Program-made: the position numbers and the translations under genes
The notes under the pieces: model-generated
What the model saw: only the letters and a program-made list of their open reading frames with translations
Databases searched by the model: none
What the model was told of the DNA's origin: nothing
Assembly: GCA_950295325.1 (NCBI GenBank)
Contig: OX485806.1
Span: 20,398,001-20,462,000 of the forward strand
Reading direction: 5' to 3'
DNA: 64,000 nt
Origin: Polytrichum commune
Lineage: Eukaryota > Streptophyta > Polytrichopsida > Polytrichales > Polytrichaceae
In this document: positions 24,126 to 27,200 of the stretch, in pieces
How positions within the stretch are numbered: the stretch's first letter is position 1
How the letters are laid out: each line of letters begins with the position of its first letter

Positions 24126-24234
24126 TACCACTAGCCTAGGCTTGACTTTCATTCCGAACTCAATTCTCGGAAATCGGTTCGTTGAGCCCAAATCGACAAG
24201 GGTGGGAGCTCACATGTTATGTTCTTTTGTGCAG

Positions 24235-24252: not shown

Positions 24253-27200
24253 ATGAAGTGGTTCGAGAAGCTGTTTGGGCCTGCTAATTACCGCCAATAT
24301 GGCGAGAATGAATTCTATGAGTACTCCAGGAATCGGTCCTCTGAACCGTCACGAAGTGACCGTGACTCTGGATGGCACAGTACTGGTGCTAGTTCAAGTT
24401 ATGGGGGATGGCGAGGACCCTCCATATTCGAGGTAGGCTATCTCACAAACAAATTCTGTTTGAAGTGCTGGCTTTTATGGTACATCAACCTAGGATTTTC
24501 CCCTTTTCTTACAAGCTTTGAAATTTAATGAATAAAAGAGAATCACTCACCCTCTTCCAATGATTGTCTTTATTGCATCTTGGCCTTCACAAAACCAGAA
24601 GGCAATAATACGCTGGTGAGAAAGGTCTATAAATAGAACTCTAGGGTAGGTTGTGTTTATATTTTGTAGGAATCATGGAAGATTTGTAGTAAACTTTCAG
24701 AATTGCCCAAACGCTTCCAGTTACTGTCTTTGTTGCATCTTAGCTTTGGAAAATATCCAGAAGGCAATAATACATGTGACAATTCTCTAGAAACAATAAT
24801 GTATTATTATAATGGTGAAGTGCGAATCTTTCATGAAAGATTGATTGCATGATGAGAAAGATTTGGGAGAAATCAAAATCTAGCGTATTAGTTGTGTTTC
24901 TAAGAAATTTTAAGAACTATGAGAGATATTAATGCACCATGGATGCTAGAGGGTGGCTGAAACCCACAGCCTTGAGTTGGATCCCATGGGAGCTCCAAAG
25001 TTAAGTCACCTATGGTTGGAATATTACTTAGATGGGTAACCTCCCTAACACTTGATTTCCGATGCACGTTGCCACCTATGGTCCACCCAATCATAGAAGG
25101 AGTATCCAAGGGGCAATCATTGAATAATTTCAACCAACCGTGTACTAAGAATCTAGGGGCTTGTCCTTGAGGGAGATAAGTGCCGGTGAGTTGGTCTGCA
25201 TCTGTTCAAGGTGTTCACCTTCAAAAAGAGGTAGTAAACGTCGGGAACCCTCTGATTCTTGTAATCCTGTTCCGGGATTACATATATATGTAGACCAACT
25301 CACAAGTGAAGCAACACCATATGATTCACTCCGATGGCAACATCAAAGTCGTCTTTCTTCCTTTGGATGCTAGTATTCATGTCGTGTCACCCGATTTATT
25401 CCTTTTGTATTTATATAATATTTTTTCTGATGGTTAATCTTCGAACTGAAACATCTCTATTCAGGATCCATATGCCGACATGTATTCCAACCAGGGAGGG
25501 AGCCATAACCCGTACCAGGACATGAAATTCTTGCACCAGGATGAGAGGTTTGCACATTCATACGCGGACCTGTATGGTGCATTGCCTAGTGAGTCCAACA
25601 CCACCGGTCGGCTTATAACCCAGCCTCAATGGCGGACAAGCACTGAAGAGGTTGGGCTCGCCAACAAGGATGCCAACAAGGTTGCCAACAAGGATGCTGA
25701 CTCCTCAGATGATGACAGTAGTACGTGCCACCACTTAACTCCTTTCTCACACATGGCTCTCACTTGTCAGTCATTTACCTGGGATGTGAAGAATCGAAGG
25801 AGGTCTATTACCGGAGTGAATGAAAGCGATTTTACTGCCGGTTAGGAGCTTAACATAGGTGTCCGATTAAGGAAGCTAACTGAATTAGTTTCATCTACCT
25901 TGCACTTGTTGAAACACTGACCTTGAAGGTTTCAATAAGACTTTGTAAAATCATGTACGTAGTGGTCAAGCCTTGCTTAGCGATTATGCTGACATGCCTA
26001 GTCTTGATTGGAGGAAGTACATTCTCACTTGTAATTGATGATCATGTCATGGCTTGAACATTATGTCTGGTAAATGGACACGTGCAGTCCAAACATCGGT
26101 TTTAGTAGGTCTTTAGTATCTAATGGATTATGATAATGATGAGGTAGGTTGGACGCTTATTACAACCCTTGGTAATAGGGCTCCTTGCATCCATCACCTA
26201 GTTCCCAAAGGTTTGCATCTAAATAGATATGTCTAATTTGGATACTTTTCTCACTCGACCCACTTCTAGTAAGATACAAAACATGCAATTAGTGCGAGAT
26301 GGTTAGCAAATCCAAATCGCACTCCCAACTATGTTGACTATTGAACCTAAATTAGTTACCATATTATGAGCACGTAGTCCAATGTCTTTTAAACATATGT
26401 CTTTTTGGTGTCTGTTCTTAAATCCAAACTTAACCACATACCATTCGACTTTAGGTTTCCAAATTACTGCTATAATGTTGGAACTAGGCATGTCTATCTT
26501 ACATCAATGGACAATATAGATGGCATATAATACTGGAGATAGCAGATCATCATCTAGGCTTGAGTAGCAAAATCTGTTATGAAACTCTTGCCAAATTCGG
26601 TCCTACTTGAGATTCCAACTGATTGTAACAAATGGAACCAATCTTACAATCAAGCAGGCTTGCTAATGTGTGGAAGTTGGTTTGTTCTCAGGCAGAGATG
26701 ATGATGAAGAGGACGAGTCTGATGAGGATGAGGATTTATCTAAAGCTTTGCATGAAACTTTGAATCTCAAATACCCACCTCCATATGGCACTTCCAACAT
26801 TGCACCCGCATACACCCCAAGCATGACACCTGCACTAAGGTTTGATAAATTAATAACCTTTAGTACAAAAAAAATTCCATGTGTTTGTTTGAAGTCTTGC
26901 AAATGTAATGATTTTTTTTAGCACATCACTAAACTATTTTATTCTAATTAAAGAATACCGTCAATGCATTCAAGTTCATCCGCTCCAGTCTTCAGATGGT
27001 GAAAATCCTGTGAAAAATTTATCTCCTTGTGCTGAATCCAATGAGCGCTGACAAACGAAGAGGTGTTATTATTCTTCAACACCAATCTGTTTATTTCATA
27101 TTAAAATGATGTTTCTGTTATGGTGTCCAGGTCAGCAGGGATTTCTTCATGTGCAGGATGTCATCGGCCACTTGGCTTTGGAAGGTTTTTGACGTGCTTG

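Follow-up and report, generated by a model that had tools for sequence, protein, structure and literature searches.

A probable SINE family with a 5S rRNA-derived head in the moss Polytrichum commune, and its decayed copy in a predicted intron of a DA1 gene

SINEs of the SINE3 type (zebrafish SINE3, AmnSINE1, and lepidopteran HaSE3 and its relatives) combine a head derived from 5S rRNA with a body of other origin, and they are found as dispersed copies flanked by target-site duplications. The hosts named in the accessible parts of the literature are vertebrates and insects (PMC7245038, PMC10886601, PMC3747384), with further lepidopteran SINE3 families described in PMC10886601, and a fungus, Aspergillus, for which 5S-related SINEs are reported in the accessible text of PMC5063351.

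Several systems described in plants and green algae share one or another of these traits. Cassandra TRIMs are plant retroelements that likewise borrow the internal promoter of 5S rRNA, and they possess two LTRs with the 5S sequence inside. The P5SM of the TFIIIA gene is also a 5S-like sequence inside a plant gene, and it forms a conserved exon. The tRNA-headed plant SINEs (TS, ZmSINE2, ZmSINE3) have the architecture of plant SINEs and terminate in a simple repeat on the 3' side, and tRNA promoters are given in Table 1 of PMC3747384, as far as that table is accessible, for its three SINE/LINE pairs from land plants. According to the accessible description in the same paper, SINEX-2_CR of the green alga Chlamydomonas ends in a (CTTT)n repeat, has the tail of the RandI LINE and has no assigned promoter (PMC3747384). 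The classification used by the plant tool AnnoSINE provides for 5S-headed SINEs, with no plant family named in its accessible text (PMC8825457), and the accessible part of PMC3095306 speaks of 5S-homologous SINE3 sequences 'including plants', the reference given there being its Cassandra one. Among the matches listed in the accessible open-licence literature, no land-plant SINE with a 5S head was found; such a family may exist in Repbase or SINEBase.

We analyzed a window of 64,000 nucleotides from the genome of the moss Polytrichum commune, to which all positions below refer. A moss origin agrees with a PsaD exon of this genome, which matches the PDB chains 6l35_D, 7ksq_D and 8htu_D, from the photosystem I of Physcomitrium, at 181-184 bits; the next match among the best 60 of 81 scores 160 bits, and the highest score (308.9 bits) belongs to 9vfj_D, a chain of 698 residues that is matched in three stretches. 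Seven chromosomes would be in line with Polytrichaceae. Very probably (with a probability of about 0.93), the interval 24951-25363 of this window derives from a SINE family of the SINE3 type that is dispersed in the genome and begins with a complete 5S sequence, and it represents an old copy that has since decayed. Like SINE3, the family has a 5S head that starts at about position +1, it is short, non-coding and dispersed, and it shows duplications of variable length and a simple-repeat tail. It differs from the described SINE3 families in its moss host, in the CTTT repeat of the tail, and in the body, for which no LINE partner was found. The 5S head distinguishes it from the tRNA-headed SINEs of land plants, and the description of SINEX-2_CR sets that algal element apart as well. 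The coordinates of the element and of its surroundings are collected in Table 1.

Table 1. Features of the 5S-headed element and of the DA1 intron that carries it (positions in the window)
Feature	Position	Strand	Basis or remark
Left target-site duplication, TGGATGCTAG	24940..24949	+	Perfect 10-bp match to 25364-25373; one base before element start
Right target-site duplication, TGGATGCTAG	25364..25373	+	Perfect 10-bp match to left flank
Whole SINE insertion (probable), 413 bp: 5S head, body and tail	24951..25363	+	Family profile match
5S rRNA-derived head	24951..25067	+	Alignment to RF00001 1-120; host 5S alignment with shuffles
Position of Pol III box A (5S 50-64), degraded	24999..25013	+	Register of host 5S alignment
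Position of intermediate element (5S 67-72), TTGGAA versus CCGGAA in the host	25016..25021	+	Host 5S alignment
Position of box C (5S 80-97), TAGATGGGTAACCTCCCT	25029..25046	+	Host 5S alignment
SINE body, no long open frame in copies	25068..25349	+	10-copy and 40-copy alignments
3' tail, CGTCTTTCTTCCTT, decayed CTTT repeat	25350..25363	+	Family tail comparison
Predicted DA1 intron carrying the insertion, GT..AG, phase 0	24433..25464	+	Reading of the sequence
Hypothetical cassette exon (unsupported), 66 nt	24970..25035	+	TGA is the second in-frame codon

The head is a degraded full-length 5S rRNA sequence on the forward strand, which covers the 5S from about position +1 up to its 3' end. With cmscan, positions 24952-25067 (+) were aligned to positions 1-120 of RF00001 at 17.8 bits (E = 2.6 for 2.5 kb), compared with a gathering cut-off of 38 bits for this family. 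This weak match was the only one over the 5S-like stretch when 4227 Rfam families were compared with the + strand at E ≤ 10, and no family exceeded its gathering cut-off in a scan of the entire 64-kb window. Insignificant when taken alone, the RF00001 score is overridden by the comparison at the level of the family, which gives strong matches to the 5S genes of the host: a profile of 40 family copies, built with no 5S gene included, matched four host 5S loci (L041-L044, in a scan that took in 16 loci) with E-values from 1.3e-16 to 8.7e-16. In addition, the alignment of the window head to a 5S gene from the same genome scored 68, whereas the best of 10,000 dinucleotide shuffles scored 35. The 5S origin of the head is thus established. 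The order and spacing of 5S-like segments pointed out by the sequence-only reading proved to be real, and the covariance-model search that it had proposed returned an end-to-end 5S alignment, though with a score that is insignificant by itself, an outcome which that reading had named as a refutation. Rfam searches at E ≤ 1 were run on 30 of the 40 copy loci (20 and 10). RF00001 matched three of the first 20 loci end to end (27.7, 27.0 and 23.2 bits, all below gathering), and no 5S match was obtained in the other 10 (L001-L010), among which is the locus of the window copy. A 5S-like stretch in a plant intron that falls below the Rfam cut-off may accordingly be truly derived from 5S rRNA, yet represent only an old insertion.

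The family was identified by searching the window's own genome (64 contigs, of which seven are large, with a total of 407.8 Mb) with positions 24940-25320 as a 381-bp query. Besides the window copy itself, the matches (at least 41) comprise 39 copies that are 73-76% identical to the query and a single short fragment. The 40 candidates scored were the best of 1492 rough ones, and all 40 copies were analyzed; among the matches listed, they are dispersed over contigs C1-C7. The window copy is itself one of the 40 copies inside the family profile, and the profile match at 24948-25376 (E = 8.6e-118) is the only one in the window at E ≤ 0.01. The copies have a common 5' end, 34 of the 40 starting at most 2 nt from the start of the window copy (about 5S +1). 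Full length is retained by 33 copies, in which the longest sense open stretch comprises 45-111 codons; the other seven (L007, L016, L018, L024, L029, L035 and L038) were left out of the flank and tail counts described below.

The sequence-only reading had also considered a mere 5S pseudogene. Degraded and partial 5S matches do exist in the genome outside the SINE family, and a lone 5S rRNA pseudogene or retrocopy could be one more of them. However, the repeat extends about 295 bp past the 5S part in the 33 full-length copies of the 40, and these copies have their 3' end in common. The shared body beyond the 5S sequence refutes such an origin, to which we assign next to no probability.

The median pairwise identity among the 40 copies is 75%. 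Heads and bodies deviate from the column majority by medians of 12.9% and 13.9%, respectively, which marks the family as old. With a mean identity of 0.719 to the others, the window copy ranks second lowest of the 40. Exact k-mers from the head and the body occur at 162 and 372 places genome-wide, respectively, with no occurrence of the reversed-pattern controls, and the same k-mers are carried by 9 (head) and 21 (body) of the 40 copies. Scaling the totals by these carrier fractions yields about 720 and 710 copies, which suggests a family size of ~700, a rough and probably low estimate since the 40 sampled copies are the best matches to the window. In the copies L061 and L065, part of the body is absent (about 50 and 120 profile positions, respectively) and the head adjoins the 3' part; these two loci perhaps represent shorter subfamilies. 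The body of the window copy contains a 16-nt inverted repeat, which is not evident by eye in the other copies of the 10-copy alignment.

Direct repeats in the flanks and the structure of the 3' end characterize the mode of insertion. Of the 33 full-length copies, 19 have a flank direct-repeat score of at least 16 and 6 a score of at least 20; when flanks were swapped to give 4000 control pairs, these thresholds were reached by 6.6% and 0.275% of them, respectively. The latter threshold and frequency also apply to the duplication that flanks the window copy. The 19 repeats that score at least 16 comprise 13 with lengths of 8-13 bp and 6 with lengths of 14-21 bp. The score stays below 16 in 14 full-length copies, and the best flank repeats of L012 and L027 are located 12-15 nt away from the element start; the decay of old duplications would explain both the low scores and the displaced repeats, which constitute weaker evidence. 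On the 3' side, the sequence found just before the head recurs behind the CTTT repeat. The tails of 25 of the 33 full-length copies contain at least two CTTT-phase units and those of 16 at least three, while a clear CTTT repeat is absent in 8. The common start, the CTTT tail, the target-site duplications and the shared body bear out a SINE insertion, which the sequence-only reading had named as one of its duller explanations.

Another explanation offered there was a TRIM insertion, which we considered as a TRIM of the Cassandra type, or a solo LTR derived from one, that contains the 5S sequence within the LTR. The length of the element is indeed LTR-like, and plant Cassandra LTRs contain 5S sequence (PMC10853983, in its accessible part). 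However, the element begins at about 5S +1, and its 5S part is not embedded between LTR parts, in contrast to Cassandra with its two LTRs and the 5S sequence inside. No LTR pair was seen at the ten loci analyzed with 1.5 kb of flank on each side, since each of these 3.4-kb loci (10 of 10) holds a single copy. Similarly, no direct repeat pairing the 5S part was detected within 24440-25475. The target-site duplication of Cassandra is about 5 bp, whereas the duplication in the window is 10 bp and the 19 better flank repeats of the family span 8-21 bp, and the 3' end of the family is a CTTT repeat. A Cassandra or TRIM origin is thus extremely unlikely.

As read from their sequence, the family heads appear to carry the boxes of a type 1 Pol III promoter in the correct spacing. 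With box positions that we take from the 5S literature (A 50-64, IE 67-72, C 80-97), the majority of 34 heads was compared with the host 5S. The promoter core (5S 31-96) is the best-kept part, with identity between the majority and the host at 55 of 66 positions; the corresponding values are 28 of 49 in positions 1-49 and 8 of 22 in positions 98-119. Agreement is complete in the intermediate element (6/6) and high in box C (15/18), and box A is poorly kept (9/15). Taken together, the boxes agree with the host at 30 of 39 positions versus 45 of 80 in the remaining 5S sequence (one-sided Fisher p = 0.022), a modest signal suggesting that the source copies kept their promoter. TTTT runs show no depletion among the copies, with 39 counted versus 40.5 in mononucleotide shuffles, as would also be the case under neutral decay.

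These features are consistent with the following course of events. Pol III would have used the internal type 1 (5S) promoter of source copies to make transcripts that began at about 5S +1 and continued beyond the 5S 3' end, through the body and on into the CTTT/T-rich tail. Such RNA would then have been copied at a nick, by target priming, by the reverse transcriptase of a LINE, with target-site duplications of varying length as the result. The window copy would have been inserted in sense orientation into the DA1 intron long ago, and it would have decayed since then without visible constraint and be inert today.

Alternatively, the inserted SINE could still drive Pol III transcription inside DA1 and thereby interfere with the gene. 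Its sense position in the intron and its boxes, which are in register and aligned from A to C without an indel to the host 5S, agree with this possibility, and Polr3e, which is affected by a MIR lying antisense in its first intron, provides a comparable case (PMC5358760, in its accessible part). On the other hand, both the intermediate element and box C of the window copy are altered relative to the host 5S, and this copy is among the most diverged of the family. We consider ongoing interference very unlikely.

A LINE sharing the 3' end of the SINE was found neither among the tail matches, nor behind truncated fragments, nor in eight LINE loci. The tail search gave the best 40 places of 974 rough candidates; 5 of these places were already among the copies, and a further 20 were examined. 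The SINE profile matches all 20 examined loci, some of which are truncated or internally deleted. Two 5'-truncated fragments were extended by 5 kb upstream, and of the 15 sense open stretches found there with 70 or more codons, 13 were scanned against Pfam; these gave no reverse-transcriptase match and one Zein match (E = 0.0034) below its cut-off. None of the eight LINE loci, two from each of four RVT_1 groups, contained a SINE-profile match at E ≤ 1. Among the four groups, one has an endonuclease match and the other three have RVT_1 together with zf-RVT (one locus each). The partner LINE may be extinct, decayed or unsampled. LINE-like open frames are present elsewhere in the genome, for example at C5:33409097-33411394, where a PF14529 endonuclease is combined with RVT_1 (frames over 2300 codons).

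The assignment of the surrounding gene to DA1 by the sequence-only reading was confirmed: downstream open stretches match the PF12315 DA1-like family (E = 3.7e-10 and 2.2e-6) and LIM (E = 4.2e-7), while the two exons adjoining the intron matched no Pfam family. The SINE lies in sense orientation in the predicted intron at 24433-25464. This intron, called the first in that reading, is the first coding intron if the methionine of MKWFEKLF is the start, but an acceptor-like AG at 24233-24234 precedes the MKWFEKLF exon. A second direct repeat was noticed in the same intron upstream of the SINE (24539-24611 and 24699-24773, with ~160-bp spacing). A plasmid blastn search with the intron as query gave no match.

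The possibility that had been given most attention was a regulated cassette exon, that is, a 5S-mimic switch exapted from the insertion and controlling DA1. The splice-like motifs on which it was built are present, but their coordinates required correction: the AG is at 24968-24969 and the GATGG/GTAACC junction falls after 25035, so that the imagined exon is 24970-25035. The AG and the donor-like GGGTAACC lie 66 nt apart within the head, and the in-frame TGA would turn an included segment into a poison exon. However, among the 40 copies, one contains the acceptor-like CCCACAGCC and two contain the donor-like GGGTAACC. Being nearly private to the window copy, these motifs look like changes acquired through decay rather than features of the element. 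Visual inspection showed no pyrimidine tract ahead of the AG, and the match to the 5S model is weak. Furthermore, 21 of 117 positions in the window head (0.179) and 51 of 273 in the body (0.187) depart from the family majority, which places the head/body divergence ratio of this copy at rank 25 of 40; since the head has diverged like the body, there is no sign that the 5S part was preserved. Such an exon therefore deserves hardly any credence, and the SINE in DA1 is most likely an inert old insertion. Whereas the P5SM of TFIIIA is a conserved exon, the moss element is a decayed repeat in an intron.

The 5S-headed SINE family of the moss can be regarded as a modestly new member of SINE3, the locus itself being ordinary, and it would extend SINE3 to land plants. 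In the accessible part of PMC10886601, it is speculated that Cassandra derives from the insertion of a SINE3 element into an LTR, and the moss family supplies the type of element that this idea needs. A scenario in which the moss family is the remnant of an ancient land-plant SINE3 lineage, one relative of which jumped into an LTR and founded Cassandra, nevertheless remains a long shot.

Other 5S-like sequences in the genome fall into several kinds. About a dozen near-intact 5S matches, single or kilobases apart, are located on C1, C2, C3, C5 and C6 (best candidates), and no tandem 5S array was found among the best-scoring candidates of the 5S searches. Of the four host 5S loci matched by the family profile, L041 and L042 have a duplicated neighbourhood in common, while L043 and L044 share the 5S gene alone. 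A segment of several kilobases, with main pieces that are 91-97% identical, is present at L090, L091 and L092 (C2:59.43, C4:54.35 and C7:14.29 Mb) and contains two 5S-like units about 184 bp apart. The tandem 5S-like units at L077, L078 and L082, considered as a possible SINE, were rejected as such, being part of this segment at its three places. Finally, a 900-bp stretch with a degraded 5S sequence is shared by L079 (C2:70.175 Mb) and L081 (C5:52.874 Mb) at 95.6% identity; their distances to the respective contig ends are about 115 and 69 kb, and the pair is perhaps a subtelomeric duplication.
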